From Streptomyces sp. RKND-216 (GTDB lineage Bacteria; Actinomycetota; Actinomycetes; Streptomycetales; Streptomycetaceae): a stretch of 64,000 bases of DNA. The notes beneath the pieces were generated by a model. That model had not been told where the DNA came from, searched no databases, and worked only from the letters and a program-made list of their open reading frames with translations. The position numbers and the translations under genes are program-made. The first letter of the stretch is position 1, and each line of letters opens with the position of its first letter. The stretch is taken from assembly GCF_004795255.1 (NCBI RefSeq), contig NZ_SSBQ01000002.1, positions 2,358,001-2,422,000 on the forward strand, in the 5' to 3' direction. Of this stretch, positions 1 through 16,573 are shown in pieces.

Positions 1-8
1 GAAACGCC

Positions 9-149
9 ATGGCCGGACGAGAGCCGACCTCCGCTGAGTTCCGCGACGCCGCCGACGAGATGGACGCCACCGGGCACCACTTCCTCGCCCGCGAACTGCG
101 CGCGGAAGCCGACGAACGCGAAGCCCGCGACACCGATAAGGAGAACTGA
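9..149 (+). CDS. Small charged AICE-associated protein, possibly 5'-truncated
   Basis: The first ATG in the window opens a 46-residue reading frame ending in TGA two bases before the next gene's GTG. The product is very rich in Glu, Arg, Asp and Ala (start MAGREPTSAEFRDAADEMDA) and looks like a short amphipathic helix. The frame is also open to the window edge, so the true start may lie further left. I do not recognise a family. Its place in the run of spread-type genes suggests an accessory role in the element. Confidence 0.45.
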   Translation: MAGREPTSAEFRDAADEMDATGHHFLARELRAEADEREARDTDKEN

Positions 150-151
150 TC

Positions 152-346
152 GTGCCTGCCCGTGACTTCTTCCACTCCGTCGAGCGCATCGGCCCGGTGC
201 AGATCGGCACCCACCGCGACCGCCGCACCGGACAGACCCGCCACGCCGCCGTCTGCGGCGCCGAGCGCTGCGGCTGGTCCGCCGACTACGGCACACGCTC
301 CGCCGCACAGCTCGCCGCCCGCACCCACCGCTGCCGCATCCGCTGA
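152..346 (+). CDS. Small AICE mobile-element transfer-type protein (SpdA-like)
   Basis: GTG start two bases after the preceding stop, with a GGAG ribosome-binding sequence inside the end of that gene. The 64-residue product is basic and carries two Cys (AVCGAERCGW) and a C-terminal His/Cys (THRCRIR), which could bind a metal. Short proteins of this kind are commonly annotated as mobile element transfer proteins in Streptomyces integrative elements. The role (intramycelial spread or regulation) is inferred from position and family resemblance only. Confidence 0.6.
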   Translation: MPARDFFHSVERIGPVQIGTHRDRRTGQTRHAAVCGAERCGWSADYGTRSAAQLAARTHRCRIR

Positions 347-363
347 GAAGGGGAGACCGACCC

Positions 364-558
364 ATGTCCGTAGAGATCCCGCTCGTCGCCCTCCTGGCCG
401 TCTTCGGCTACTTCGGCATCAAGCTCTTCCGCCCGCCGACCTGGCTCGTCGTGACCCTCCTTCTCGGCGGCTTCCTCCTGGCCGACACATTCATCGCCCC
501 CGTCATCGAGGGCGGCGCCGAGACCGGCACACAGATCGTCAACAACACCAACGACTGA
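364..558 (+). CDS. Small two-helix membrane protein of the AICE (Spd-type)
   Basis: A 64-residue protein begins at ATG 364 behind a GGGGAG ribosome-binding site. It has two hydrophobic helices, about residues 4-20 and 25-45, separated by a short KLFRPPT turn, then a polar tail. Small integral membrane proteins are typical of the spread (spd) operon of pSAM2-like elements, where they help plasmid movement along the mycelium. The family assignment is by size, topology and location, so the exact spd homologue is not claimed. Confidence 0.6.
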   Translation: MSVEIPLVALLAVFGYFGIKLFRPPTWLVVTLLLGGFLLADTFIAPVIEGGAETGTQIVNNTND

Positions 559-573
559 ACGAAGGGACCTGCC

Positions 574-906
574 ATGTTCCGACCCAAGTACCCCACCACC
601 CCGGCCCCGACCGGCAACGCCACCCGCGTCGTCGCCCCGACCACCGTCCGACCCGGCGCCCCCATCGAGCCGACCGGCTGCGACTCCCCGGCTCCGACCA
701 ATCCGCCGGCCAACCCGGCCCCCGCTGCTCCGGCCCGGATCACCCCGGGCACGGCCGCCGCACTCGTGGCCGGTGGAACCGCGGCCGTCCTCGTCGTCGG
801 CACGGTCCTGGTCTCCATGCTGCTGGCCGTCGCCATCACCGCCGCCTCGCTCGCGGTCACCGCGCTGGTCATCCGCTCCCTGCTTCACGGCCAGCACCAG
901 CGCTGA
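574..906 (+). CDS. Proline-rich AICE membrane protein (SpdC/SpdD-like)
   Basis: ATG 574 follows a GAAGGGA ribosome-binding site and gives 110 residues. Residues 1-55 are rich in Pro, Thr and Ala. They are followed by one long hydrophobic stretch of about 40 residues (AAALVAGGTAAVLVVGTVLV and onward), probably one or two membrane helices, and a short basic end. A Pro-rich head on a membrane anchor is typical of SpdC/SpdD proteins of Streptomyces plasmids and integrative elements. Inferred role: spread of the element between hyphal compartments. Confidence 0.55.
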   Translation: MFRPKYPTTPAPTGNATRVVAPTTVRPGAPIEPTGCDSPAPTNPPANPAPAAPARITPGTAAALVAGGTAAVLVVGTVLVSMLLAVAITAASLAVTALVIRSLLHGQHQR

Positions 907-994
907 CCGGCCCTCCGGGGCGGCACCGATACCGCCAAGCATCCGCCGCCCCGGCAGGACTCCAGCCCCCAACCAACCAGAAGGGACACCCATC

Positions 995-1180
995 ATGGCC
1001 CACACCATCCCCGCCCGCCGGATGCGGCACTGCCGCGACTGCGACGGCTTCCCCGTCGTCGCCATCGACACCGGTCAGCTCCACCCGGACGGCACCCGCC
1101 GCACCCTCCGCGTGGTCTGCAAGACCTGCCACGGCACCGGCCTCACCCCGCTCCGCGTCGCCGCTGAGGTGCGCGCATGA
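995..1180 (+). CDS. Small zinc-finger-like protein preceding repSA
   Basis: ATG 995 lies just after an AAGGGA ribosome-binding site and encodes 61 residues. Two cysteine pairs, CRDC near residue 13 and CKTCHGTG near residue 43, resemble a DnaJ-type zinc knuckle. The stop overlaps the repSA start (ATGA), implying translational coupling. A longer open frame starts upstream at 773, but the ribosome-binding site and spacing favour 995. Function unknown; a DNA-binding or regulatory accessory to replication is possible. Confidence 0.6.
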   Translation: MAHTIPARRMRHCRDCDGFPVVAIDTGQLHPDGTRRTLRVVCKTCHGTGLTPLRVAAEVRA

Positions 1181-2571
1181 CCAAGACCGCCACCGAGGCG
1201 GCAGCCCTGGATTCGGTCGCCCTCGCCGACGCGCTGAGGGTGGCCGGGTCCCCCGGCTTCGACCGCTGGCAAGACCAGATCCGCCGCACAGGCGGCTGCG
1301 CCAACCCCGTCCACCTCACCGGCTGGACCCTCACCAAGGACCGGACGACCGGGGAGACGCTGCACCGGTACTCGACCGAGGACGAGCCCGGCGGGCGTCT
1401 CCGCGTCGCTTGCGGCAACCGTCGCGCTTCGCGCTGCCCGTCCTGCGCCCACACCTACGCCGGAGACACCTGGCACCTGATCCGTGCCGGACTCGCCGGA
1501 GACGACCGCCGCGACATCCCCGCCGCTGTGCGGGACCACCCGCGCGTCTTCGCCACCCTGACCGCACCGAGCTTCGGCCCGGTGCACAACCGGCCCGACT
1601 CCGGCCGCTGTCGCTGCGGCACCCGCCACGCATCAAACGCTGAGGAGCTGGGCACGCCGCTCGACCGCGAGTCGTACGACTACGCCGGGGCCGTGCTCTT
1701 CAACAACCACGCCGGACAGCTCTGGCAGCGCTTCACCACCCGGCTCCGCCGCGAGATCGCCCGCCGCGCCGGGATCACGCAGCGGGAACTGTCCAACACG
1801 GCGCGGGTGTCCTTCGGCAAGGTCGCAGAGTTCCAGAAGCGCGGCGCGATCCACTTCCACGCCGTGATCCGCCTCGACGGACCCGACGGCCCGGAAGACC
1901 CGCCGCCGTCCTGGGCCACGGTCGCGCTGCTGACCGACGCCATCCGCGCCGCCGTGCGGCACGGCTACACCTCGGTCACCGTCCCGTCTGCCAACGGTCA
2001 GCCCGCCCGCAACCTGCGCTGGGGGACCCAGCTCGACGTACGGCCCGTCAAGGCGTTCGGGGACGGCTCGGAACTGACCGAGCAGGCGGTCGCCTCCTAC
2101 GTCGCCAAGTACGCCACCAAAGCCGCCGAGACCACCGGCACCCTCGACCGCCGCATCGGCGAACTCGCCGAAATCGAACACCACCAGGTGCCCGAGCACA
2201 CCCGCCGCCTCATCCAGGCCTGCAAAGACCTCGACCCCGTGTACCCGGACCGGCGGCTGTGGGCCTGGGCGCACATGCTCGGCTTCCGCGGCCACTTCTC
2301 CACCAAATCCCGCCGCTACTCCACCACCCTCGGCGCACTCCGCCAGACACGCGCCGACTACCGCGCCGCCGAGCAAGCCGCCGCCCTCGGCATCGAGGAC
2401 CAGGAGCCGGGCACCGTCCTCGTCCTCGCCGACTGGCAATACGCCGGACACGGCCACACCCCCGGCGAATCCGTACTCGCCGCCGGCATCGCCAACGACA
2501 TCCGAACCCACCGCGAGACAGCCCGCGAAGCCCTGCAAGACCTCCGCGCACAGGAAGGAGACCACCAGTGA
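1177..2571 (+). CDS. repSA: RepSA-like rolling-circle replication initiator
   Basis: A 464-residue replication protein of the kind encoded by pSAM2-type elements, which replicate by rolling circle after excision. The HUH metal-binding motif appears as HFH at residues 226-228, and the probable catalytic tyrosine motif as YVAKYATK from residue 308. Cys pairs near the N-terminus (CPSC at 87-90, CRC at 145-147) suggest a zinc site. It overlaps the small zinc-finger gene upstream and the excisionase gene downstream (GTGA), so it is expected to be co-expressed with excision functions. Length and motif order fit the family. Confidence 0.85.
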   Translation: MTKTATEAAALDSVALADALRVAGSPGFDRWQDQIRRTGGCANPVHLTGWTLTKDRTTGETLHRYSTEDEPGGRLRVACGNRRASRCPSCAHTYAGDTWHLIRAGLAGDDRRDIPAAVRDHPRVFATLTAPSFGPVHNRPDSGRCRCGTRHASNAEELGTPLDRESYDYAGAVLFNNHAGQLWQRFTTRLRREIARRAGITQRELSNTARVSFGKVAEFQKRGAIHFHAVIRLDGPDGPEDPPPSWATVALLTDAIRAAVRHGYTSVTVPSANGQPARNLRWGTQLDVRPVKAFGDGSELTEQAVASYVAKYATKAAETTGTLDRRIGELAEIEHHQVPEHTRRLIQACKDLDPVYPDRRLWAWAHMLGFRGHFSTKSRRYSTTLGALRQTRADYRAAEQAAALGIEDQEPGTVLVLADWQYAGHGHTPGESVLAAGIANDIRTHRETAREALQDLRAQEGDHQ

Positions 2572-2756
2572 CCACCGCAACTGAGGAACTACTGACCGTG
2601 CCCGAGGTCATGCGACGGCTCAAGCTCGGCCGCTCCACCGTCTACGACCTCATCCGCTCCCGCCGCCTGGTCTCCATCACCATCGGCCGCTCCCGCCGCA
2701 TCCCGGACTCAGCCGTCCGCGACTTCATCGCACACGAACGGGAGGAAGCCGCCTGA
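2568..2756 (+). CDS. xis: Excisionase (Xis), MerR-like helix-turn-helix protein
   Basis: A GTG start overlaps the repSA stop (GTGA), behind a GGAAGGAG ribosome-binding site. The 62-residue product is nearly all helix-turn-helix: LTVPEVMRRLKLGRSTVYDL followed by a wing ending SRRIPDSAVRDFI, the usual Xis/excisionase-family pattern. The gene abuts int (TGATG), as expected for a protein that directs the integrase towards excision by bending DNA at the att sites. Confidence 0.85.
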   Translation: MTTATEELLTVPEVMRRLKLGRSTVYDLIRSRRLVSITIGRSRRIPDSAVRDFIAHEREEAA

Positions 2757-4018
2757 TGCCCACCCCGAGGAAGAACCGTGCGAACGGTGAGGGCACCGTC
2801 TATCAGCGCAAGGACGGGCGCTGGGAAGCTGCCGGGTACGTCCTCACCGCCGACGGCACCCGCAAACGAGTCCGCGTCTACGGCAACACCCGCAAGAAGG
2901 CGACCGACAAGCTCACGGAGAAGCTCGCCGACAGCAACCGCGGGCTTCCCCACGCCTCCGCCGACAGCACCGTGGGCACATACCTCGCGTACTGGCTCGA
3001 CAACGTCGCCATCCACCGACTCCGCGAGACCACCCACACCCGCTACGCCGCATGCATCCGGCTCCACCTCGCACCTGGGCTCGGCACGAAGAAGCTCGCC
3101 CGGCTCACCGCACGGGACGTGCGTACCTTCCTCGACCGGCTCCGCTCCACATGCCAATGCTGCAGTCACGGGCTGGACGCTGAACGGAAGCACTGCTGCG
3201 CCATCGGACAATGCTGCCGCAAGACGCTCTCGCCACTGACCGTGACCTACGTGCACTCCGTCCTCAAGGCCGCACTGGAGCACGCCGTCCGCGAAGACGA
3301 ACTGCCCCGCAACGTGGCCCGGAACGTCAAGACCACCGCACCCCGGCCGACACGCTTCCGGCCCCTCACCACGACCGAGGCCCGCCAGTTCCTCACCGCA
3401 GCCCGCAACGACCGGCTGCATGCGCTGTACGAACTCGCCCTGCGCACCGGCCTCCGCAAAGGCGAACTTCTCGGACTGCGCTGGGAAGACCTCGACCTCG
3501 ACAGCGGCACTGCCACCATCCGGCGGTCACTCCAGCGCACCCGCACAGGCGGCCTCACACCCCTGCCCACCAAGACCCGGGCGTCCGAACGCCGCATCGC
3601 GCTCCCCTCCGGCTGCATCCACTCACTCAAGGAGCACAAGGACCGACAGCACCGAGAGCGCGAGACGGCGGGGCCACACTGGGAAGAGAACGGCCTCGTC
3701 TTCGCAACACCGACCGGTCGTCCCCTCGACCCCGCCAACCTCACCCGACGCTTCCAGAGCTTCCTCGACCGAGCCGAGCTACGGCGAATCCGCTTCCACG
3801 ACCTCCGCCACTCCACCGCGACCCTGCTCCTGGAACAAGGCGTCGACCTCGTCGTCATCAAGGAACTCCTCGGCCACGCCCACATCGGCGTCACCGCCGG
3901 CGTCTACGCCCACGTACGACTCCGCCTCCAACGAGACGCCATCGACACCATCGGCAAGGCCCTCAGCCCGAACGACGACGACCCCGACGACCCTCCCACC
4001 GCAGCCGTCGTCAGCTGA
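2756..4018 (+). CDS. int: Tyrosine-family site-specific integrase
   Basis: A 420-residue integrase with an N-terminal arm-binding region, a SAM-like core-binding domain (about 70-190) and a catalytic domain. The catalytic set is visible: Arg234 (TGLRKGE), probable Lys273, His348 and Arg351 (FHDLRH), His374 (LLGH) and Tyr384 (GVYAHV). A Cys-rich insertion at 133-154 (CQCC, CC, CC) sits inside the core-binding domain and may bind zinc; comparable insertions occur in other actinomycete integrases. It overlaps xis by one base and is followed by direct repeats and a terminator. Confidence 0.92.
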   Translation: MPTPRKNRANGEGTVYQRKDGRWEAAGYVLTADGTRKRVRVYGNTRKKATDKLTEKLADSNRGLPHASADSTVGTYLAYWLDNVAIHRLRETTHTRYAACIRLHLAPGLGTKKLARLTARDVRTFLDRLRSTCQCCSHGLDAERKHCCAIGQCCRKTLSPLTVTYVHSVLKAALEHAVREDELPRNVARNVKTTAPRPTRFRPLTTTEARQFLTAARNDRLHALYELALRTGLRKGELLGLRWEDLDLDSGTATIRRSLQRTRTGGLTPLPTKTRASERRIALPSGCIHSLKEHKDRQHRERETAGPHWEENGLVFATPTGRPLDPANLTRRFQSFLDRAELRRIRFHDLRHSTATLLLEQGVDLVVIKELLGHAHIGVTAGVYAHVRLRLQRDAIDTIGKALSPNDDDPDDPPTAAVVS

Positions 4019-4041
4019 CGTTGCCGTCAGCGTTGCCGTCA
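4019..4041 (+). repeat. Two 11-bp direct repeats after int
   Basis: CGTTGCCGTCA occurs at 4019-4029 and again at 4031-4041, directly after the integrase stop codon region. Short direct repeats next to int can be arm-type integrase binding sites in this element family. That role is inferred and not shown by the sequence. Confidence 0.5.
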
Positions 4042-4050
4042 AACGCCCAG

Positions 4051-4089
4051 TAGCCCCGCCAGGACTCGCCTGACGGGGCTACAATTTTT
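4051..4089 (+). terminator. Rho-independent terminator after int
   Basis: A 13-bp stem (4051-4063 with 4069-4081, one G-T pair) and a 5-nt loop ACTCG are followed by five T residues at 4085-4089. It ends the AICE operon and separates it from the convergent toxin-immunity genes. Confidence 0.85.
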
Positions 4090-4154
4090 GCTACCGAAAT
4101 CGAGCGGGAGGGTTGCGCGACCGCGTGAAGAGGTTACGCCTCACCACCCAATTA

Positions 4155-4415
4155 TCAGTCATCGCCGAGAAGGCCAATAGCTTGCGGAAACTCCAGAATT
4201 GCCGCCCTGCGCTCCGGATTCTCTTCCAGTTCAGCGCACTCCAGAATCAGGGAAGTAGCTTCCCTACGCCCCTCTTCCGAGAGATCACGAAACAGGGCGG
4301 CAGCAGGTTCAAGAATGTCCGTTGCAACATCCGGGTCAATATCTTCATCGTCCGTCAAGTCGATCGAGACGACGACGCTTACGAATGCGCGAACTAGGAC
4401 TTTATTGACATCCAT
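4155..4415 (-). CDS. Putative immunity protein for the RHS toxin
   Basis: An 86-residue, strongly acidic protein (for example LTDDEDIDPDVATDILEPAA) whose ATG overlaps the TGA of the giant RHS gene by one base. Immunity genes of polymorphic toxins sit exactly there and are usually small and acidic. I do not recognise the immunity family. Base composition is clearly more AT-rich than neighbouring genes, like the toxin tip, suggesting the two moved as a cassette. Predicted role: cytoplasmic binding and neutralisation of the C-terminal toxin domain. Confidence 0.65.
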   Translation of the reverse strand: MDVNKVLVRAFVSVVVSIDLTDDEDIDPDVATDILEPAAALFRDLSEEGRREATSLILECAELEENPERRAAILEFPQAIGLLGDD

Positions 4416-7400
4416 CAGGGTGCGACTCTCACTCGAATGTTGGTGATCAGAAGGCCGCCGAGGACTTTTCGAGCCCGCGCGGCCTCAGCCGCAGTGGGAA
4501 CTTCCCACCGACCGCTGTAACCGTTCTGCTCAAGCGCTAGAGATTGATTCATAGCCTGCCGGTATGTCTTATTGAAAGTCGTGACGCTCACCTTTCGGTC
4601 GATCATCACTCCATTGGCCGCATCGAACCCATCGAACTTGATTTGCGACAAGCTCTTCCCGCCAGCCTTGTAGTACTGCAGCGCCGGAGCCACACCAGCT
4701 CTGGAACCCGCCGCTCCCGCATCATAAGCCCGCGCCGTGGAACTCATATTGGCGTTCTCGTTAGCCCAATGAACGTCGCCGTCGCAGTTGTGAACGAGGA
4801 CCGGCGTGGCCCCCGCCAGCACATAGTACGTGTGGGTGTCGGTGACGGTGAGGTTGTGGACGGTGGTGGGTTGGGTGTAGCGGGCGACGGCGGTGATCTG
4901 GACGTGGGTGCCGACGCTGGTGCGGAGCCACTGGCCGGCCTTCAGGTCGGTGGCGTCGATCCAGGCGTCGAGTTCCGGAACCCAGAACGGGTGGCCGTCG
5001 GTGGCCGTGACCGAGGCGGTCTCGTCACCCTTGTCGCCGTCCACGTCAACGGTGACACGGACCAGGCGCTTCAGCCCCTTGCCGAGGATCTCGGCGGTGA
5101 CCGTCTCCACCGTGGTCTCGCCCGTCTCCGGGTCGGTGGCACGGACCTCGTCCCCGATCCGGACCTCGCTGATCGGTTTCGTCGACCCGTCCGCCATCAG
5201 CACTCTGGTGTCCGGAGTGAAGCTGTTGCTCACCGGACACGCCGCCGGCATGGCGTCGTCGCCCTGCTTCTTGGCCACCTTCGCCGCGATCTTCGACCAT
5301 TTCGCCGCAGCCTTGGACTGCTTCCAGTAGGTCTTGAAGCCGGAGACGAGCTTGCCGACCAGCCCGGCGATTCTCTTCCCGAGCGCGACAGCCTTCTTCC
5401 ACTTCCACGGCAAGCCGTACTTGGCCGCGAGTTTCCCGACCACGCCTCCGGCGAAGCTCGTCGCGATGTTCACCGCCGTCTCACCGCACGACCCCAGACT
5501 GCCGGTCGTGAAGCAGTCCAACGCCGCCGTGATTCCCAGCTCGTCCGCGACGACCGCGGCCAGTTCCTTCGCCGCCGCGATCGCCTGCTGCTTCGCAGCG
5601 TTCGCCTCCGCCGACGCCGCTGCGGCCTGGTTCGCGGCAACCGTGTTCCGCTGCGCCATCCAGCGGTACCGCTCCACGCCGATGTGGTTGTGGATGTAGT
5701 TGTGCAGCACCTGTTGGTTGCCGAAGCCCAGACCGGTCACCGAATCGTGCAGCATCAGGCCGGACGGATCGCTGGAGGTGACCGGGCTGTTGTTGGCGTA
5801 GGCGTAGCCGTTGATCTGCTGCGGGTCGGTGAAATCGATCACCGGGTCGGCGGAGACGAAGCGGCCGTTCTCCGGTTCGTACTCCCGTGCCCCCACGTGC
5901 GTCAGACCGGTGGAGGAGTCCATCGGCTTGCCGAGGAACCCCTTGTCGTCGACCCAGTCCTTCTCCGGAGTGCCCCGCTGCATGCCGAACGGGTCCATCC
6001 GGCGGCGCGTGACCTCACCGCTCTGCGGGTCGACGGCGACCTGAGCCGTGCCGTGGCGGTCACCCGCCAGGAAGGTGACACCTTCGGAGGTGCGGAGCGC
6101 AACGGTCTGCCCCGCGAATGAGTAGTACCGCGTGCCCTCGATCTCTCCCGTGCTCTTGTCCAGGCGCAGCTCCATACCGGGCAGGTAGAGGGTCGTGGCG
6201 TCCGGCTCGTCGCGCAGCAGGCGGCTGCCGCCCGCGTCGTAACCGAACGTCGACTTCTGTCCCGCCGCGTCGGTGGAGGCGGCGAGCCTGCCCTCCGCGT
6301 TCCACTCCAGCGTCTGCGTGTTTCCCGACAGAACGCGCTGCTCGGTGTTGCCTGCGGCGTCGTAGGTGAAGGTGTCCTGGGACGTCACCGCGGGGTCGCC
6401 GCCGTGCGCGGGCGTCTGCTGGACCACCTTGGTGAGCTGGTGCGGGCCGGCGTCGCCTTCCCCGTAGGTGTAGGTACGGGTGACGTCCGGCGCCGAACCC
6501 ACTCCGTGCCGGACCTGCTCGGAACGGTTGCCCGAGGCGTCGTAGGCGAACGACTGCCAGTACGGTGCCGGTCCGCCGATGGCCGAGGACGACGGGCCGG
6601 CGGAGCACGCGGCGTCAGGGGCACCCGTGCCCAGGGCGCCGTCCGAAGGCTTCGAGCTCGTCCATGCCTCGGTGAGGCGGCTCTGCCAGTCGTGCGTGAA
6701 GCACTGGACGTCCGCGGAACCGCCGTTCGGGGTGTCGGTGATCGACTGGACGTTGCCGGACTGGTCGTAGGAGTAGTGGGCGTCGTACGGAACGTCGGTT
6801 CCGGAGACGTAGACCTGCGAGCCCGTCAGACGGTCGGTGCCCCGTTCGTACGTGTAGGACAGGGTCGTGCGCTTGGAGTCTCCGCCTCGGGTGAGCTCCA
6901 GGCTCTGGAGCAGACTGGTGGGCGAGTAGCGCGCGGCGCCGACGTAGGAGCCCGTGCTGGTGGTGCGCAGCACCGTGGGACGCTGCAGTTCGTCGTACTC
7001 GTACAGCAGGGACTCCGACGGAAGCCCCGCTGCCTTGGGGAGGGTCGTCCCTGCGATCGTGCCGTCTTTGTTGTAGAGAGTCGTGAACTCGTAGGCACCC
7101 TGGAGCGCGTGGGGTGCTGCGGGGCCTACCGAGTACCTTTTTTCCACCGGCCGGTAGAAGTCGTCGACTCTCGTGGTGAGAGTGCTGGTGAGGACCTCGC
7201 CGTCCTGGTAACGGTAGGCGCCGAACAGCGTGTTCTTCTTCAGCCCGTCGTACAGGTTGAGCGTGAGCCGTTCACCTGTGCCGGGCTCACCCTCCCACGT
7301 GCCGAGTGTTCGTCCGATCTCGTCGTACTCCGTGGAGACCTTCACACCGCGGGCGTCGGTCGTGGCGACCGCACGGTCCATGGAGTCGTACGCGTAGGTC

Positions 7401-10400
7401 GTGCGTCCGGCGTCCGGGTCGTCGGACCAGATCTTGCGTCCGCGCTGGTCGTAGCCGTACGTCCACGAGTTGGCCGCCTGGTCGGTGACCTCGGTCAGCC
7501 GTCCCGCCGCGTCGTAGTCGTAGCGCATCGCCTCGTAGTCGGCGGACGTCCCGGACGGCTGCGGCTCCTCGCCCTTGTAGCGACGGATCTCCGTGGTGCG
7601 CCCCTGCGCGTCCGTGATCGTGGTGACGGGGGCCGTGCCGACGGGCGGGTCGACATGGGTCCTGTCGCCGCCGTAGGCGTAGGTCGTGCGCCACTTCTCG
7701 CTGCCCTCGACCTCGAGGATGTCGGCCGTCTTCCGCCCGGCCCCGTCGTACGCGGTGACGGTGGCGCTGTCGACACTGTCCACTTCGGGAAGGAAGAGCT
7801 GGTCCTGCGGGGCACCGGTCGCAGCATAGGTGGCGTGCGTCCTGCGGATCTCGCCGAGCCCGTTGTAATAGGTGTCGGCGACGAGACGGTCACCGTCCTC
7901 ACCCTCGGTCTGCACCTGCCGCGGCCTGAGGAGACCGTCGTACAGCGTGTACTCCGTGCTGTAGGTGTTGAGGTCCTTTCCGAGCTTCTCCGTTTTGACG
8001 GCGGTGGGCTCGCCCTTGCGGATGAGGTAGGTGTATCTGATCGAGGGCGAGTGGGTGTCCTTGCCGCGCCCCTCCAGCCACACGCCGGTGAGCCGGCCCA
8101 GCGGGTCGTGGCCGAGTTCGGTGCGGTACCCGTTGGGGTCCACCTGTGCGGCGGGCTGCCCCCACGCGGGCTCGTACTCGGTGGAGGTCACCCAGCCGAG
8201 CGGATTCGTCTCGGTCTTCTTCGTCGCCAGTCCGTCGCTGTCGGTGTAGGCGATGGAGGTGGACTCACCGGCGGCGTCCGTGACCTTGAGCGGGCGCCCG
8301 AAGCGGTCGAAGTCCGCCGGTGCCGCCGAGGTCACCGTCTGATACGTCGGCGTGGACCCCTCGTAGAAGGCGAGGCGCCGCACCTTGGTGGTGTCGCCCT
8401 TCGTGGGGCCTTCACCGTGGGCCTTGCCGTCGTAGTGGGTGAGGGTGTCCGCAAGGACCTGCGTCTCGTGGTTGTACGGGTCGCCGCAGGAGACCGCGAG
8501 CTTCTCGACACGGGAGACCATCGAGAGGATGTGGGCGTCCGGGTTGTCGGCGTACGACGTTTTCGTGCAGGTGTTGTCGGAGGCGTCGCCGGTCTGCCCG
8601 TAGTCGTCCGTCTGTACCGGGCGTCCGGTCTTGTCGTCGTAGCGGGTGGTCGCCTTCGTGACCCGGCGCCCGCCACCCTCCAGAGGGGTGAAGGTGGTGG
8701 TCGTCTGCGGCGCGGTGTACCACGCCTTCTGCGTGCCCCAGCTCTCCGCGCGTTGCGCGGTGCGGTGGGTCCACACGGTGTTGATGGATTTGCGGACGAG
8801 GGCGTTCGCAGCGAATCCGCCGTTGTACGTGGCGGTCTCGAGTTCGTGGCCGGACAGGTGGTCGCTGTCCTGGTGCTTCGCCCCCTCGGAGTCCGTGACC
8901 TCGCCGCCCATGCCGCGGAGGAAGGTGTGCTCGGTCCGGGTGTTCTCCGGCGCGGCTGTGCCGTCGGACTTCGTCACCCGGACCTTCGCGTAACCCCGCC
9001 AGTCACTCTTCGTCCGGTACGCCGCGTCGGAGATGCCGTCGGGCTTGGGCTCCTTCCAGCCCGCGCCACCGACGTAGTCGTACTCGGTGACCATGCTGGG
9101 GGCGCCGCCGGAGAGGTCGTCCTCGACCGTCTTGCGGACGACGTACTTGTGGAACCAGTCAGTGATCGGGTCCTCGGCACCCGGCGGGTTCCACTTCACG
9201 GGGAAGCAGCGCTCGGTGGACGAATCGGGGGCAGGCAGATCATCGGAGGCGCAATCGGCGGCCTCGTAGACGATGTCGAGGAGGCCACCGGTGTCGTTGT
9301 CCACTCCGGACAGCCGGTGGCGGTGCATGGCCTGGATGTCGTCCCCCGGCACATCCACGCGGTTGGGCAGTTGCTCCCCGAGGAGTTCCACCGACGGCAT
9401 GGTGGCCGTGCCGCCCACGTGACCGGTGTGGTCGATGTTCTTGAGCCACAGCGACTTGGACGAGTCGCCGTTGTCGGTGAAGATGTGCCGCAGCTTCCAC
9501 GACTCGACGTCGGAGTAGTCACTGCCGGAACGGATCTGCGTCGTGATCTTCGACAGCTTCTTGCGCGTCCAGAAGGTGGGCGAGTTCTGCCCCTCGCACT
9601 TGGTGGCCGCCTTGCAGTGGCGGTCCCACGGAACGTCCGGCCACCGGGACGCCGTGGCATCGGTGAGATCGCCGGGCTCGCACTCGGAGGATTCTCCGAT
9701 GCAGCGCTCGGTCACGTCGAGCACCACACGCGCCGCGGCAGGCTGCTCGTAGACCTCGTTGTGGCGCTGCCCGTACTCGATGCGGGCGAGGTATCCGCCG
9801 CGGGTGTAAGGCTTGCCGTCCTCCTCCGTCCTGAGGCCCTGCGTGTAGTGATTCGTCTCCTTGTCGTAGAAGAACGACATCACGTTGCCGTGGGTGTCCT
9901 TGACGTAGTCCAGGTTCCAGCGCCACGCCTGCCGGCAGTGTGCGTCGGCGAGGGTCGCGTCGTAGCAGGGTTCTCCGGTGTCGTCGCCGTACACGGGAAC
10001 GGTCCAGGTGGACTCGGTCTGTTCGTCGCCGCTCGACCAGCCGGGAAGGTTGTCCAGGCCGAAGTAGTACTCCGTGCCGTCAGCGGACGTCAGGACCCAG
10101 TACTCACCGTTGTCGTCGCCGTTGGGAGCGCCGGTCTTCTTCTCGACTCTGGTGTTGTCGTCCGCGCTGACGCGCCACTGTCCCGTGTCGTCGTCCTTGA
10201 CGAGGCGACCCGCGGTACCTCCTGCGATCTGCACGGTGGCGTTGTCGTACGCCCAGCACAGGTCGCCGTTGGTCTCCTTGTGGCCGTCCTTGGCACAACC
10301 CTTGTAGCGGCGTTCGATGAACCCCGGTTCGTAGGAGAAGCCGAGGCCCACCCAGGAGCCCTGGTTGTTCGTCACCGCCGTCTGGCCGTCGATGGACTGG

Positions 10401-11296
10401 GATCCGTATCCCAGGCCGATAGCCGGCGAAAGCCCGCCCGGCACGGGTGGGGTGCGCAGCGGGTAGGACCAGTTGAAGGCTCCGGAGGAGTTGGAGACGC
10501 TCCACTGCGCCGAGGGCTGGAGCGGCGTCGCACCGTAGCTCCCCTGGTCGGACCCCTCGCCGGCGAGGGCTGCCACCAGGGGTGCCGCACCGTCGGATCC
10601 GTCACCGGCCGCTTCGACACGCGCCGTCAGCCGCTGCTGGGCGGTGTCGTTGACGCTGCCGAGTTCCTCTGCCTCTCGGCATTCGGGCTTCTGCGGGCTG
10701 TCCACCAGGCAGGCCGGGTACTGCACCAGGCGCAGGCGGGCTCCGTAGTCACCGCCATAGGCTTCGGCGAAGCCGGAATAGTCGAGCGAGATGTCCACAG
10801 GAGCCGCGCGTTTCGCGCCGTCACTGCGGCGGACGTCCAGCAGGACGCCGTCCACTCCGGCCTTCAGCGTCTTCTTGCGGCTGAGCACCGTGACATCCAC
10901 CGCGGCGGGAGAGGCCGCCCCTGAGCGCGAAGCCTGGCTGGGGCCGGCGAGCCTCAGCGGGCCGCCCTTCCCCTTGTCCGACTTGCTGACCGGGCGCAGG
11001 GTCTCGGTACCCGCCTCAGGCCAGACGACGCGCGGCGGCGCCTTGACCTTGGCCTTCAGGACCGGATTGGCCGGATGAGGCTGGTTTCGCGCCGGCTTGC
11101 CGGGGACCGGATCGTCGAGGTCCTGGATCTCGGGCTTCGGCGGTCCCGATGCGGCAGCCTGCGGCACGAAACCGGGCAGCAGGCCGACCGACAGGGCGAG
11201 CCCGAGCCCGACGATCGTGTGTCGGCGGAAGCGGTGGGTGTTCCGGATGGTGCGGGACCTGAGCCAGGCAGGTCTGGCCACGATTCTCTCCATCAT
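4415..11296 (-). CDS. Secreted RHS/YD-repeat polymorphic toxin with Hint domain and nuclease-like C-terminus
   Basis: 2293 residues. A signal peptide with a basic n-region and a hydrophobic stretch (VGLGLALSVGLLPGF) ends near residue 50 at an AAAS site. An SpvB-like shell-start region follows (about 250-600), then many YD repeats, and the RHS core closes with GYAYANNSPVTSSDPSGL near residue 1848. A Lys/Ala-rich pre-toxin helix region leads to a Hint (autoprocessing) domain at about 2020-2171, from CPVSNSFTPDTRVLMADGS to VLVHNC. The last ~122 residues differ in base composition and carry FDGFDAANGVMIDRK, a pattern like PD-(D/E)xK nuclease toxins (closest by eye to Tox-REase-5). It resembles Bacillus WapA in layout. 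It is the last large gene of an FG-GAP/LamG/RHS array, with the immunity gene directly after. Confidence 0.9.
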   Translation of the reverse strand: MMERIVARPAWLRSRTIRNTHRFRRHTIVGLGLALSVGLLPGFVPQAAASGPPKPEIQDLDDPVPGKPARNQPHPANPVLKAKVKAPPRVVWPEAGTETLRPVSKSDKGKGGPLRLAGPSQASRSGAASPAAVDVTVLSRKKTLKAGVDGVLLDVRRSDGAKRAAPVDISLDYSGFAEAYGGDYGARLRLVQYPACLVDSPQKPECREAEELGSVNDTAQQRLTARVEAAGDGSDGAAPLVAALAGEGSDQGSYGATPLQPSAQWSVSNSSGAFNWSYPLRTPPVPGGLSPAIGLGYGSQSIDGQTAVTNNQGSWVGLGFSYEPGFIERRYKGCAKDGHKETNGDLCWAYDNATVQIAGGTAGRLVKDDDTGQWRVSADDNTRVEKKTGAPNGDDNGEYWVLTSADGTEYYFGLDNLPGWSSGDEQTESTWTVPVYGDDTGEPCYDATLADAHCRQAWRWNLDYVKDTHGNVMSFFYDKETNHYTQGLRTEEDGKPYTRGGYLARIEYGQRHNEVYEQPAAARVVLDVTERCIGESSECEPGDLTDATASRWPDVPWDRHCKAATKCEGQNSPTFWTRKKLSKITTQIRSGSDYSDVESWKLRHIFTDNGDSSKSLWLKNIDHTGHVGGTATMPSVELLGEQLPNRVDVPGDDIQAMHRHRLSGVDNDTGGLLDIVYEAADCASDDLPAPDSSTERCFPVKWNPPGAEDPITDWFHKYVVRKTVEDDLSGGAPSMVTEYDYVGGAGWKEPKPDGISDAAYRTKSDWRGYAKVRVTKSDGTAAPENTRTEHTFLRGMGGEVTDSEGAKHQDSDHLSGHELETATYNGGFAANALVRKSINTVWTHRTAQRAESWGTQKAWYTAPQTTTTFTPLEGGGRRVTKATTRYDDKTGRPVQTDDYGQTGDASDNTCTKTSYADNPDAHILSMVSRVEKLAVSCGDPYNHETQVLADTLTHYDGKAHGEGPTKGDTTKVRRLAFYEGSTPTYQTVTSAAPADFDRFGRPLKVTDAAGESTSIAYTDSDGLATKKTETNPLGWVTSTEYEPAWGQPAAQVDPNGYRTELGHDPLGRLTGVWLEGRGKDTHSPSIRYTYLIRKGEPTAVKTEKLGKDLNTYSTEYTLYDGLLRPRQVQTEGEDGDRLVADTYYNGLGEIRRTHATYAATGAPQDQLFLPEVDSVDSATVTAYDGAGRKTADILEVEGSEKWRTTYAYGGDRTHVDPPVGTAPVTTITDAQGRTTEIRRYKGEEPQPSGTSADYEAMRYDYDAAGRLTEVTDQAANSWTYGYDQRGRKIWSDDPDAGRTTYAYDSMDRAVATTDARGVKVSTEYDEIGRTLGTWEGEPGTGERLTLNLYDGLKKNTLFGAYRYQDGEVLTSTLTTRVDDFYRPVEKRYSVGPAAPHALQGAYEFTTLYNKDGTIAGTTLPKAAGLPSESLLYEYDELQRPTVLRTTSTGSYVGAARYSPTSLLQSLELTRGGDSKRTTLSYTYERGTDRLTGSQVYVSGTDVPYDAHYSYDQSGNVQSITDTPNGGSADVQCFTHDWQSRLTEAWTSSKPSDGALGTGAPDAACSAGPSSSAIGGPAPYWQSFAYDASGNRSEQVRHGVGSAPDVTRTYTYGEGDAGPHQLTKVVQQTPAHGGDPAVTSQDTFTYDAAGNTEQRVLSGNTQTLEWNAEGRLAASTDAAGQKSTFGYDAGGSRLLRDEPDATTLYLPGMELRLDKSTGEIEGTRYYSFAGQTVALRTSEGVTFLAGDRHGTAQVAVDPQSGEVTRRRMDPFGMQRGTPEKDWVDDKGFLGKPMDSSTGLTHVGAREYEPENGRFVSADPVIDFTDPQQINGYAYANNSPVTSSDPSGLMLHDSVTGLGFGNQQVLHNYIHNHIGVERYRWMAQRNTVAANQAAAASAEANAAKQQAIAAAKELAAVVADELGITAALDCFTTGSLGSCGETAVNIATSFAGGVVGKLAAKYGLPWKWKKAVALGKRIAGLVGKLVSGFKTYWKQSKAAAKWSKIAAKVAKKQGDDAMPAACPVSNSFTPDTRVLMADGSTKPISEVRIGDEVRATDPETGETTVETVTAEILGKGLKRLVRVTVDVDGDKGDETASVTATDGHPFWVPELDAWIDATDLKAGQWLRTSVGTHVQITAVARYTQPTTVHNLTVTDTHTYYVLAGATPVLVHNCDGDVHWANENANMSSTARAYDAGAAGSRAGVAPALQYYKAGGKSLSQIKFDGFDAANGVMIDRKVSVTTFNKTYRQAMNQSLALEQNGYSGRWEVPTAAEAARARKVLGGLLITNIRVRVAP

Positions 11297-11353: not shown

Positions 11354-14300
11354 CTACGTCACCTCGGTGCCGAGGTTCTCCCCGGACTGCAGCATCGAGA
11401 CGGCAGCGGCCAAGTGCTGGTCGAACGCCCCTTCGAAGACCCGTACTTCGTCGAGGGCTCCCGAGAAGTGCTCGGTTCCCGTCGGCCCTACCCCCGCGCG
11501 TCCGATGTGGAGGGCCGCGGCCGAGAAGTCCCAGTCATAGCGCCAATCGCTGACTTCAGCGGCGAGCTCACCGTTGACGTACAGCTGTACGCGCGCGAAG
11601 AGGGCGTCGTGAACGAGTGCGAGGTGATCGCCCGCTTCCACTGCGCTGGGCTCGGATCCGGTCGCCGGTACCGAGGCGCTCGGTGCCCCAGCCGTGTCGC
11701 TTTCCGTGACTTCGAGTTCCCAGATCGCACGGTCCGCGTCGTAGCGGACCAGGGCGGCTGCCCGGCTGCTGCCGGGGAGTGCCAGCACCGTCTGGTCCTC
11801 TGTCGCATCGGGAGAGGTCAGACGCGCTCGTGCCGTGATCGTGAAACTGGCCTTGCTCGCCAGGAGCCCAGGTCCCCGGCTGACGTAACCGTCCGCCCCG
11901 GACAGGTCCAGGTGGCCATCGCCCCAGAGCGGCTGGGCCACCGGTTGGCAAGTGGGGTCGGTTCCCGGGTCGCAGGTTTCATCAGGAAGGTACACCGACG
12001 CGTCACCGTGCAGGTCGAGGCCGGTGCCGCCGCCGAGTTCGGGGATCACCGTGTCCGCCGCCTGGTCCATGTTCCAGTAGGCCAGCTGCCCCGGGGGCAG
12101 GCCGCCGAGGCCGGCCGTCTCGGCCTCGGTCAGGACCCGGTCGAAGACGGCGACGTCCGCGACGGTGCCCTTGAGGTGGTCGGTGTACCCGCGGGGTTCG
12201 AGCGCCCGGCCGATCTGCAGATCGCCGGTGGCGTTCCAGGTGGTGGCCCGCTCCTGGATGTCGCCCTCGACGAGATGACCGTTGACGTACATCCGCATGC
12301 TGCCCGGGTCTGCGCCGTCGTCCCGGTCGTAGACGCCGACCAGGTGCGTCCACTCGCCGGCCACCGGGCGAGGCCCGAGAACCTCCCAGGAGATCATGGT
12401 GCCGATCTCGAGGTCGGGTGCCAGGAAGGACCAGCGGCCGGAGTCGCCGTCGAAGCCGAGGGTGAAGCCCGAGTAGGCAGACCCGTCCTGGCTGACCAGC
12501 GCCATGGAGGACGTGGGCACTTCGGGCAGCTTGACCCAGGCGCCGACGCTGAAGGTCTGGTCCGTGTCGACCAGGTGCTGGCCGGTGTCCAGGTATCCCT
12601 CAGCGGTTCCGTCCAGTCGGGCAGCCGTACGCACGCTGCCGTGCGGGCCGTCCACGCCGAACGTCACTCCGGTCCCGGCTTCCGCCGGCTCGGCACCGTC
12701 CTCCCCCGCAGCCTGGGTGGAGCCTTCAGCGTCGGCGAGGGCCCACGAACCCACCGGGGGGCGCCCCGCATCGACGAGGAAGGTGTGGGCGTTCGGCGTC
12801 TGGCGGGTGTTACCGGCGGTGTCCACCGCCTGCACGATCAGGTGGTAGGCGGCGTCCGTCCGCGGCATCCAGCGGACGGTGGCCGGGCGGCCGGGCTCCG
12901 GCGGTGTCGCCGTCTTCCAGGACTCACCCGTGAACTGGTAGCGGTACGAGGCGATGTCTGTGCCCGGCGTGTGGAACGAGAAGGTGCCGTAGTCGCCCAC
13001 CCCGCGATGCCAGGTGTCGTCGTCGGGGTACTCGGTCGAAGTGACCGCCGGCGCCTCGGGGGCCGTTGCGTCGTAGAGGAACTGGCAGCGGGTGGCGCTG
13101 CCGGCATGACTCCACGGTCCCCACGCGTTCTTGTCCCCGCCTCGCACCCACCAGCCGATGACCACGTTCTCGGGGATGGTGAAGCTGCCAGTGCCGTCGC
13201 CCGGTATGTCGTCTCCGACGGTCCAGCGGAAGCGCTCGTAGCCGCTGTGGGGGCGGTCGGAGGAGGAGTTCGACTGCTTGTAGTCGGTGGTGACCGTGTG
13301 GCTCTCCTCGGTGCCGTCCGTGTTCGTCCAGAAGACTTCGAACTGTGCGCGCAGTTGCTCCGTGCTGCCGCCCGCGTCCCCGTGGTCGGGGTCCCACACG
13401 ACCGCGCTCAGGGTCGGCACCTCGTCGGCGTAGTGCTCCTCGGCCTCGCCGTAGGTGCATTCGCCGCCCGGCGACATGGTCAGCTCCGACATCTTGGGCT
13501 GGTAGGGCGGCCGGTTGTACTCCACCTCCAGTGCGGCGTTGTTGCAGAAGCGCTTCCAGGAGGCGTACGAGCCCTCGGAGGACGCCCGTAGCCCGAACGT
13601 GGTGCGGTCCCACCCCTTGGAGGCCGCCGTGCGGATCGTTCCCGTCACGCCGAAGCGGACGTTCTGGTTCTTCGACGTGCAGGAACCGGTCGTGTTCGTC
13701 GGTTCCTTCGTCGTGAGGTAGTCTTTGCTGGAGGGCTGGTTCGACCAGTTGGTGCGCGAACTGATCGCGCTGCCGCCCGAGCTGTTCACGCGGTGCAACT
13801 GCACGCCCCGAGCGGTGGAGTTGTAGGTGTGCACGAGGGTGATCGTGAACTCCGCCTTGACGATGTTCTTGCCCTCGAGCGCGCCCGTCGGGAGGGCGTA
13901 AAACTGGCGCTGCACGTCGTTACTGCTCGCGCACCGGGCGGACACGTCGGCCGGACAACGCCCCAGCCCTTTGCCGGGCAGCCCCTCGGACTCGTCGTTC
14001 GAGAACTTCCAGCCCTCCAGCCCGGAGTGATGGGAGGAGACCCAGGTCCAGCCTGTCCGCGTGTACGTCTTGTTGACCGGGTCGATCACCACGGGATAGG
14101 TGGTGTCCGGGCCCTTGAGCAGGTCGGCGTCCGGCGTCAGGGTCAGCTTTCCGTCGGCGAGATCCAGATCGACGTCGCCGACGTTGGACCCCTCTCCCGG
14201 CCCGTTGACGGCGGCTGCGGCCGCCGACTTGCGCGCTGCGGGTTGTGCGGCACCGGACGAGTCCCACATGACCGGCTGCGGGGCTTCGAACACCTTTCCG

Positions 14301-15011
14301 CCGACAGACGCGTCCGTGGCGGCCAGACCTCCGCTCGCGTCGATGCCGAGGTCGAGCCCTTCGGTCGTCACCCCGAGGTCTATGGAAGCCAGCTGCGGGT
14401 TGGACGCCGCTTCCGCCGACTTGACGACCAGCACGTGCGAGAAACCGTCGCTCTCCGCCGTGACGACGAGATCGACGCCGTCGAATACCGCCGGGTAGGT
14501 CGCCGTCGCCCCCCTCCACGACGGGGGCGGGAAGCTCGGCCGGCCACTCGTAGGACAGCACCTTGCCGTTCTTCGCAAGAGTGGCGAAGGTCTGGTCCCC
14601 GCCGCCGGAGAAGGACATGTCGGCGAGCGTCGCCTCCGGCGTGAGGCGGCCGTTCGGTCGTTCCCGCAGTGCGGGGTCGACAGACTTCCAGGCCCCGTCC
14701 TGACGGACGCGGATCGGCCGTACGTACTCCTTGAGGGTGAACGTGCCGTTCGGGTTCGCGTAGGTCTCGCTGCGCGGCCCTCGCAGGGACAGCACCTCTA
14801 CCGGTTCCTCGCTGCGTGCGGCGGCCGCCCGGGCGATTGCCTCGGTCGGGGCGGTGGAGGCTTCCCCGTCCTTTCCGGTCTGCGCGGCGCGGCCGGCATC
14901 CGGGCTGTGGTGCGCGGCGGCCGTCGACGTGCCGGTCAGCCCGGCGGCAAGCAGCGCGGTGAGCGTCCCGATCGTCACCGCGCGAAGGCACGGGCGGGTC
15001 CTGCGGGTCAT
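11354..15011 (-). pseudogene. LamG-domain secreted protein, frameshifted at a six-base homopolymer
   Basis: One gene appears split into two frames. From ATG 15011 a signal-peptide protein (TIGTLTALLAAGLTGTS) reads to about residue 166 and then goes out of frame. The continuation, [18 protein letters not shown], is read from the neighbouring frame to 11354. The switch lies at a run of six C (plus strand, 14509-14514). Five bases would restore a single ~1218-residue protein reading [15 protein letters not shown]. The body has a DNRLRE-like region and two LamG/concanavalin-A-like jelly-roll domains near the C-terminus ([24 protein letters not shown]). The start overlaps the FG-GAP gene stop (ATGA). 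It could be a true pseudogene, a phase-variable gene or a sequencing error. Confidence 0.75.
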
Positions 15012-16573
15012 CGGATCACCCAGCCGAAGGCCGCGCCCTCGTCCGGAGCACCGCCTGCTCCAGGACGGTAGGTCGCGACACCGCCGGATCCGGCGGCCAC
15101 GGCCTCCCAGGGCAGCCCGTAGACCACTCCGTGGGGCGCCTCGTCACCCCTGCTGTAGGGGATGCCGACGTACAGACTCCCGGCGTCGGCGTGCAGGCCC
15201 CAGCCGGTGCGCTCACGCGCGCCGGCCACTCCGGGCAGCAGACCGTCGCCGCGCGTCAGGACACGGTCGCCCTGCCCCGGGTCGCCCAAACCCGGCATGA
15301 CGTGCACGGCTCCCGCCATCTCGGCGGGCCCTACCTCCTGGTGCGGGACGCCCACGGCCAGCTTGACGGTCGAGGAGGAACCGACCGCGCCAGGGGCGGT
15401 GTTGGCCAGCGCAACGGAGTGGCCGAAGAAGTCGCCGACGACCGGATCCCCTTCCACCCCCGGCGAGAAGCGGTCGACGAGTCCCTTTTCGGTGACCGCG
15501 GCAGAAGGCTGAATGCGGATGACGGTCACGGCTCCGGCGTCGGCGACCGTACCGACGTCCTCACCCGGCGTTCCGACCGCGAGCAGCGCGTCGGTCTCGG
15601 AAGCAGCGCCCTCGGGCCGGTAGGGCAGCATGGAGAGGGCGGTGCCGAAGCGGTCCTGGCCTTCGGCGGTTCCCGAGGTCAGCGCCGGATGGTCCTCGGA
15701 CACACCCGTCATCGCGACCGGCGTACGACCGTCGACCTCCTGACCGAAGACCGCGACGCTTCCGGCGAAGGACTCGTTACCGAGTGCCTCTCCGGGCGAT
15801 CCGGCAGCGAAGTAGTCGGGTGTCGCGGCGAGCGAGGCGCCGAAGCGGTCGTTGGCCTCGGCGACCCCCGGCACGCCGGGATCGTCCTGATTCGCGGTCG
15901 CACTGGTGCCGCCCAGCACGTAGTGGATGCATCCGGCGTCGTCGAGCGCGCCCACGGCCTCGCCGGGGACACCGACCGTCAGGAACGGCTCGCCCGCATC
16001 GGTTTCACCGGCCGCCAGCGCGTACCCGAAGAGGTCGCCGGCCTCGGTGGACACCCAGGAGGCGAGGCTCTTCTGCGTGTAGGTCTCCACGGCCGAGTCG
16101 GCGCTGAATCCCGACGGCGAGCCGTGCACGATGTAGATCGCCCCGGCATCGGGAAGGGCTGCTCCGTCTTTGGTGACGTCCTCGTAGGGCACTCCGACGA
16201 CCAGGTCGGAGCACCCGTCCTGGTCTGCGTCGTAGGTGGCGATGGCGTGGCCGTACCCGTCATTCGCTTCCGGTGCCGCCCGATCGTTCGTCAGTTCCTG
16301 GCTGATCTCGGCGACGCCCTTGCCGCCGCCGAAGAAGACGCGCACCAGCCCGGCTTTCGACTCGCCGTCGACCGTCGCCTCCGGATCGCCGACTGCCAGG
16401 TCGCGCAGTCCGTCACCGTTGAAGTCCGACTCGGTCCCCCCTTCACAACCCGCCTGTGGCGCGCCCGTCGCGCTGCCTGTAGCGGCCGGGGTCGCCAACA
16501 GCCCCGCGAACAGAACCGCTCCCACTGCGATCGACCGTCTCAGGATTCCCCGGAACCCACTGCCTGCAGCCAT
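15008..16573 (-). CDS. Secreted FG-GAP (integrin-alpha-like) beta-propeller protein
   Basis: 521 residues with a signal peptide (SIAVGAVLFAGLLATPAATG). Repeats of the FG-GAP type follow, each with a calcium-binding-like Asp loop and a GxP turn (DFNGDGLRDLAVGDP; DADQDGCSDLVVGVPYEDV; GDLFGYALAAGET; NDRFGASLAATPD), as in a seven-bladed integrin-alpha propeller. Predicted to be extracellular. It is the first gene of the array: its TGA overlaps the LamG ATG, and the RHS toxin follows. A role in surface display or in partnering the toxin is inferred from this linkage only. Confidence 0.85.
   Translation of the reverse strand: MAAGSGFRGILRRSIAVGAVLFAGLLATPAATGSATGAPQAGCEGGTESDFNGDGLRDLAVGDPEATVDGESKAGLVRVFFGGGKGVAEISQELTNDRAAPEANDGYGHAIATYDADQDGCSDLVVGVPYEDVTKDGAALPDAGAIYIVHGSPSGFSADSAVETYTQKSLASWVSTEAGDLFGYALAAGETDAGEPFLTVGVPGEAVGALDDAGCIHYVLGGTSATANQDDPGVPGVAEANDRFGASLAATPDYFAAGSPGEALGNESFAGSVAVFGQEVDGRTPVAMTGVSEDHPALTSGTAEGQDRFGTALSMLPYRPEGAASETDALLAVGTPGEDVGTVADAGAVTVIRIQPSAAVTEKGLVDRFSPGVEGDPVVGDFFGHSVALANTAPGAVGSSSTVKLAVGVPHQEVGPAEMAGAVHVMPGLGDPGQGDRVLTRGDGLLPGVAGARERTGWGLHADAGSLYVGIPYSRGDEAPHGVVYGLPWEAVAAGSGGVATYRPGAGGAPDEGAAFGWVIR

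Follow-up and report, generated by a model that had tools for sequence, protein, structure and literature searches.

The C-terminal tip of a large RHS/Hint toxin in Streptomyces sp. RKND-216, which is of the TseT/Tox-REase-5 type, and the 86-aa candidate immunity protein encoded beside it are very probably (we would put it at about 0.86) cargo of an AICE, whose tyrosine integrase (Int) would target a short core within the Hint codons of the toxin gene and thereby swap the tip in frame. The anatomy of the locus, the core itself, the breakpoints between related loci, and the association of Int with the core can all be read from sequence, and they form the basis of this reading. The window, that is, the whole stretch of DNA that we analyzed, is 64,000 nucleotides long, and unmarked coordinates below refer to it.

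A polymorphic toxin gene with a nuclease-like tail

The toxin gene, a host scaffold with a fused tip, lies on the minus strand (4418-11296) and encodes 2,293 aa; with its stop codon (4415-4417), the open reading frame spans 4415-11296. A Pfam scan of the protein reveals RHS repeats N-terminal to a PT-HINT domain (residues 2034-2170; 4787-5197, minus strand; E 8.2e-18). The Hint end, VLVHNC, leads directly into a tail of 122 residues (residues 2172-2293; 4418-4783, minus strand), and since the PT-HINT match ends at residue 2170, residue 2171 is all that separates the two. With RHS repeats, a PT-HINT domain, a variable C-terminal toxin, and an adjoining candidate immunity gene, the locus has, as far as its sequence tells, the full makeup of a polymorphic toxin. 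The upstream neighbors of the RHS gene encode a LamG-domain protein (11354-14578, minus strand) and an FG-GAP repeat protein (15008-16573, minus strand), both possibly extracellular.

The original prediction had set the ~122 residues after the Hint end apart from the RHS shell, and we could confirm this, including the position of the tail and the presence in it of FDGFDAANGVMIDRK and GRWEVP. Our homology search returned 32 rows, one from the contig itself (P0004) and 31 from other proteins, so the tail is a real module rather than a chance sequence. Its homologues sit on RHS scaffolds, some of which have ricin- or LamG-type domains, and a CdiA-type protein of Pantoea vagans matches the tail at 48% identity. 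A stretch of a Paracoccus albus plasmid (NZ_CP115776.1:169759-170037), which has no feature in the incomplete PLSDB gene table, encodes 79% of the tail at 46% identity. In view of this plasmid copy, to which the Pantoea CdiA protein may be compared, the tip has crossed phyla.

As for its structure, the tail is predicted to adopt a restriction endonuclease fold as in TseT, with a fold match to TseT far above all others, and its candidate catalytic residues are D51, D62, and K64 (tail numbering). In an alignment of 21 sequences selected from the 32 homologue rows, F50-D51-G52, D54, D62-R63-K64, Q80, and W93 are invariant. Set against the Tox-REase-5 motifs Y, FDG, EAK, Y, Q, and W (PMC3482391), the FDG, Q, and W of the tail are thus invariant and Tyr is present, while DRK replaces EAK. 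The expectation of a PD-(D/E)xK nuclease-like domain nearest to Tox-REase-5, with the Asp and Lys of DRK in its core, is supported. In the Pfam search proposed for residues 2172-2293, Tox-REase-5 (PF15648) is the sole match, but at 16.8 bits (E 0.01) it misses the gathering score of 25 bits, and for this reason we file the tail as Tox-REase-5-like rather than as a member. An NCBIfam scan found no family for the tail, and comparison with the sequences of solved structures gave chance matches only (GTN reductase, E 0.24).

A candidate immunity gene behind the tip

The 86-aa candidate immunity protein is encoded on the same strand (4155-4415, minus strand) by a gene whose start shares one base with the toxin stop (TGATG). 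Its model is a predicted four-helix bundle, for which a fold search gave no meaningful match (best E 0.82). The protein falls into no Pfam or NCBIfam family, and consequently has no match to Imm52; likewise, none of its 47 other homologues has a Pfam family. Comparison of coordinates revealed that the homologues adjoin a toxin homologue in genomes G188, G181, G053, G245 (two copies), G091, G111, and G039. Of 394 family genomes, 78 contain members of the immunity family (E <= 0.01) and 16 contain matches to the tail, at least seven of which are chance; the immunity family thus extends beyond this toxin tip. Among the tail matches, we dropped as chance the weak ones (E 0.004-0.01) at L010, L012, L015, and L017, which by eye display an L,D-transpeptidase-like motif, and also those at L011, L013, and L014, which are weak as well and apparently represent such proteins on the opposite strand. 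In G245, the two immunity-like copies occupy one open frame behind the toxin homologue (L006; G245:C1:5201087-5201638); this homologue has a noncanonical Hint core, and the only Int match of the genome, at 45%, is located elsewhere.

A pSAM2-like element next to the toxin gene

Convergent with the toxin and immunity genes lies the gene for Int (2756-4018, plus strand), a 420-aa tyrosine integrase (Phage_integrase, PF00589). It is preceded by genes for an HTH_17 protein that is likely an excisionase (2568-2756, plus strand; start placed by eye, residues from 2577 scanned) and for RepSA, a pSAM2-type replication initiator identified by Pfam (PF20199; 1177-2571, plus strand). Genes for an FtsK-like transfer ATPase (FtsK_SpoIIIE, PF01580), a DUF2637 protein, and a GntR protein are found in the part of the element before the window. 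The in-window part runs from 1 to 4835, and the left core lies ~4.4 kb before the window (C2:2353597-2353613), which gives an element of ~9.2 kb from core to core. The locus hence combines the three genes by which an AICE is recognized, for an Int, a replication initiator, and an FtsK-type transfer protein (PF00589, PF20199, and PF01580), and the direct att repeats expected at the element ends would be provided by the Hint core, present at both. The tip and the immunity gene appear to be cargo inside this pSAM2-like actinomycete integrative element.

Just 3' of int is a 22-bp repeat, GTTGCCGTCAGCGTTGCCGTCA (4020-4041, plus strand), which we read as an Int arm-type site. Some 4.3 kb before the window, close to the opposite end of the element, the repeat recurs as an exact copy, and a related copy lies between two orphan cassettes described below. 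The repeats near int are 0.7-1.5 kb from the core, and usual arm sites sit nearer the core than this. Between the immunity gene and int, a terminator-like hairpin can be discerned by eye (4051-4082).

Hint-end DNA occurs twice more in this genome, ~4.4 and ~5.8 kb before the window, with one copy at the far end of the element and the other beyond it, each followed by a different toxin-like open reading frame and one or two small genes. Both of these orphan cassettes are on the minus strand, before the window, and have a toxin-like open reading frame behind a Hint core, which in cassette A (L049:13604-14246) is accompanied by an 88-aa gene and in cassette B (L049:15190-15606 and L049:14413-15197) by two downstream small genes, one of them DUF6881. 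Neither orphan toxin belongs to a Pfam family. Upstream of both Hint-end copies there is ~100 bp of non-Hint sequence, and this stretch is alike, up to the core, among orphan cassettes of different genomes.

The proposed att core lies in Hint codons

The proposed att core, GCACACGTACTATGTGC, encodes HTYYV of the Hint domain and is an inverted repeat around 7 bp, which is the usual shape of a tyrosine recombinase core. With one base added on each side (AGCACACGTACTATGTGCT), the arms are 6 bp each and pair perfectly across the 7-bp center, as is apparent when it is written out as (A)GCACA-CGTACTA-TGTGC(T). The toxin-side end of the element, CCACACGTACTATGTGC (4819-4835, minus strand), also encodes HTYYV and differs from the core by one mismatch. 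As background, the best core match had five to seven mismatches in 605 of 698 three-kb windows. Moreover, the second Tyr codon is TAT in 36/36 cores, versus 62 of 1,096 Tyr codons (5.7%) upstream in the same frames. The core is also found at two or fewer mismatches in 27 of the 30 best PF07591 loci, with int seen in the 1.5-kb flank of nine loci, and because it is so common in Hint genes anyway, its conservation may be partly at the protein level.

One integrase clade is associated with the core

When we searched 249 family genomes for Int, 84 had a match at E <= 1e-100, and the matches formed two bodies, one at 60% identity or more and one at 45-52%, with a single row at 57%. To represent the first kind, we used 40 of the 44 best Int rows after our own (67-83% by tblastn, 33 genomes), leaving out G053:C63 (= L056), G102:C1:5137604 (inside L111), G053:C121, and G147:C56, and as controls we took 20 of the 31 rows with an Int at 45-52%. 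In a tree, the 41 first-kind Int rows, our own included, make up one side of a 100/100 branch.

In 36 of the 40 first-kind loci, a core with two or fewer mismatches lies on the strand opposite int, at a distance of 733-1478 bp from the 3' end of that gene, versus none of the 20 controls at the expected place; one control had an unrelated two-mismatch match on the other strand and side. Upstream of the core, the frame stays open for no fewer than 493 codons in 30 of these 36 loci, and in the remaining six the core lies beside int without fusion to a long frame. A left core was found in 27 first-kind loci too, with a stop within five codons in 26 of them. As for the exceptions, no core lies within 3 kb in L106 or L125, that of L128 is 2.6 kb away, and that of L113 has three mismatches. 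The two kinds of loci also differ in their surroundings, since a tRNA lies within ~2 kb of the int end in 17/20 controls, versus none within 2 kb downstream in the 40 first-kind loci; ARAGORN made one call in L098, 2.5 kb away and inside the RHS frame.

A survey across the whole class yielded Int matches (E <= 1e-130) in 6 of 296 genomes, namely our own, four of the genus (one of which has the 52% Int used above as control L130), and G694 (65%), which lies outside the family. Of the three Ints first seen in this survey, L189 and L190 have a core with one mismatch at 945 and 961 bp, and L188 (Int 67%, outside the 40) has no core within 1.5 kb of flank. L212 (Int 55.5%) lacks the core at the expected place. 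Close Ints on plasmid records belong to Streptomyces (15/16) and Nonomuraea (1/16).

Breakpoints between related loci fall at the core

The clearest junction comes from two genomes (L092 and L124) in which the RHS DNA before the core is 25-63% identical per 100 bp, versus 98-100% per 100 bp over the 1.9 kb from the core onward, a region that takes in toxin, immunity gene, and most of int. Since the likeness begins at the core, the moving block includes the toxin. The two elements align over 8.0 kb at 96.4% identity and over a last 0.8 kb at 91.8%, and L092 has ~3 kb extra between the two aligned blocks. Our own locus and that of G188 show the same pattern, with 38-63% identity before the core and 81-95% over the next 800 bp.

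We compared junctions at large, in a set of 82 distinct cores from 44 sources that includes 40 of orphan type and 36 of RHS type. Among orphan-type pairs alike upstream (at least 80% over at least 300 bp), likeness stops within 20 bp of the core in 70/70, and 69 of them have no match beyond it, although these pairs, which involve 26 cores, are not independent. Sequences upstream of orphan-type and RHS-type cores gave no match to each other over 200 bp or more. Similar scaffolds can carry unlike tips: those of G053 and L119 are 89% identical up to 8 bp before the core, and those of plasmids NZ_CP108363.1 and NZ_CP108250.1 are 69-94% identical per 250 bp up to the core, past which come ~1 kb of unlike tips and then an alike element. 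Orphan tips reappear in other genomes as RHS-fused tips at ~90% (L117/L126 and L104/L172), and a homologue of our own orphan toxin B adjoins, by eye, int in Streptomyces xanthophaeus NZ_CP108622.1. When we sought the end of our own RHS gene in 40 relatives, there were matches in six, at 40-68% identity.

Integration is not the only process at work. In the plasmid loci L213 and L214, toxin and immunity gene are unlike, whereas the RHS scaffold and the element backbone on both sides are alike, which indicates that cargo is exchanged independently of integration. Toxin and immunity gene vary independently of the backbone in L117 and L126 as well, and together these pairs argue that homologous recombination acts too.

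Alternative explanations

Could homologous recombination account for everything? RecA-type exchange between Hint-end repeats, with the integrase as a bystander, is suggested by the 35-50 bp Hint-end repeats that flank the cassettes of our own genome and by toxin and immunity genes that vary against an otherwise alike backbone, and it has precedents in the Salmonella Rhs and CDI orphan modules described in parts of PMC4927057 and PMC5361080. As a sole mechanism, however, it leaves unexplained the tie between Int clade and core (36/40 vs. 0/20), the inverted repeat with its 7-bp center, the conservation of the non-Hint left end as far as the core, and the occurrence of a nearly identical 8-kb element in two unlike RHS genes, and we consider it very improbable. 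We give as little credit to a scenario, integron-like or by simple accretion, in which toxin 1 and its immunity gene are chromosomal and the element uses the 22-bp GTTGCCGTCA repeats, between ready-made cassettes, as its integration site. The identical 22 bp near both ends of our own element, beside int, and the related copy between cassettes A and B would fit such a scenario, but the two repeats of G053 differ in the middle. Furthermore, L092 and L124 are unlike before the core and alike from the core through toxin, immunity gene, and most of int, and all 70 alike orphan-type pairs end at the core and not at the repeats ~100 bp before it.

A different doubt concerns the tail, whose PD-(D/E)xK-like fold might be kept for binding or other chemistry. 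Such a possibility, which we think unlikely though less so than the two above, draws on the missed Pfam cut-off, on the replacement of EAK by DRK, and on an hhalign comparison with above-cut-off Streptomyces Tox-REase-5 sequences in which the probability was only 8.9% (E 0.0037, 19 columns around FDG..K). Against it, the same comparison scored 21.6, versus 9.6-11.6 for column-shuffled controls, the candidate catalytic residues are invariant in the 21 sequences, and no other fold match comes near that to TseT.

A proposed mechanism for tip exchange

In the mechanism that we favor, in which the tip and immunity gene travel as AICE cargo, Int would catalyze strand exchange between attP and a fixed core in the HTYYV codons of the Hint domain of an RHS toxin. 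The element end would supply the codons from the core through HNC, followed by the toxin and the immunity gene, and upon integration the reading frame of the resident RHS-Hint scaffold would run on into the new toxin. The previous tip, along with its immunity gene, would end up at the opposite end of the element, silent behind a stop in the same frame, and excision of the element would return it. Ordinary recombination would add to the diversity of tips and immunity genes. The new tip is presumably toxic, and the 86-aa protein would neutralize it. A broader proposal, to which we give even odds, is that the Int clade uses Hint codons as attB for a reversible tip switch, with the element borrowing the delivery protein of its host and being stabilized by the toxin-immunity pair, since a cell without the element would no longer be immune to its siblings. 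We speculate that this loss of immunity may keep the element in the population, in the way that passages of PMC4927057 describe for CDI and plasmids.

If correct, the locus and its relatives offer a concrete, testable mechanism, in which a dedicated integrase clade acts at a 17-19 bp core in a toxin gene, swaps the tip in frame, and leaves the old one silenced. Such a mechanism would tie AICE biology to bacterial warfare and predict the tips available to a strain for switching, and the core together with int could serve as a signature for finding toxin-immunity pairs. New tips and downstream orphan tips have so far been explained by homologous or illegitimate recombination. An element that integrates in a coding sequence and replaces its 3' end in frame is familiar from e14 in Escherichia coli icd; however, e14 swaps the end of a housekeeping gene for a near equivalent, while our element would swap a weapon domain for a different one.

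Relation to known systems

The TseT/Tox-REase-5 family (PF15648) differs from the present tail, which is below its cut-off and has DRK for EAK, also in delivery context, since TseT is a T6SS effector and the tail is on an RHS/Hint scaffold. With pSAM2-like AICEs, our element shares Int, a Xis-like HTH protein, RepSA, and an FtsK-type transfer protein. Known AICEs reside mostly in tRNA genes and some in protein-coding genes, according to the portions of PMC9513070 and PMC3218068 that we used, the former giving 14 protein-coding insertion sites. By contrast, elements of our Int clade are found in Hint codons and bring along a replacement tip and an immunity gene.

The displaced orphan modules of CDI and Rhs systems resemble our cassettes in that old C-terminal tips and immunity genes are kept downstream. 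The concept of module displacement is already in print: in the part of Ruhe et al. 2016 on this subject, new modules are proposed to integrate into cdiA, displacing old ones, and integrase and transposase genes are noted nearby (PMC4927057). The CDI/Rhs accounts, in the portions that we used, tie no particular recombinase, att site, or element to the exchange, and a passage of Kirchberger et al. 2017 states that there was so far no evidence of integrase-facilitated insertion of effector-immunity pairs (PMC5361080). Polyimmunity loci can adjoin XerC/D-type recombinases (PMC3482391). In the rAID of Bacteroidales, orphan immunity genes form an array that is accompanied by a tyrosine recombinase and has conserved intergenic motifs; as far as the consulted part of PMC12247911 goes, rAID has immunity genes only, with neither integration site in a toxin gene nor tip exchange. 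It is defined there by a recombinase upstream of a co-oriented orphan immunity array in Bacteroidales, whereas our int belongs to an AICE and converges on a single toxin-immunity pair. The PEST elements of Mycobacterium prophages and PICIs are likewise mobile and bear a polymorphic toxin and immunity gene, but these are whole toxins, and three PICIs with a tyrosine Int integrate at tRNA genes, as set out in sections of PMC10654092. Among the matches listed in our search of the open-access literature in PMC, there was no integrative element that exchanges a toxin tip through an att site inside the toxin gene.

Diversity of the cargo

Finally, we aligned 35 right-hand tails, leaving out L115, whose tail has 25 residues. 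They have HTYYVLAGxTPxLVHN in common, of which HTYYV is partly a product of selecting by core, and no invariant column beyond. Ten Pfam families match one or two of the 35 tails each: TreTu, Tox-REase-3, LHH, Ntox43, Ntox27, DddA-like and Pput_2613 deaminases, Fic, and two DUFs. One stretch, G133:C777 (L092 and L093), has four copies of int along with six different Hint cores and, on its sequence, is a tandem accretion of such elements.
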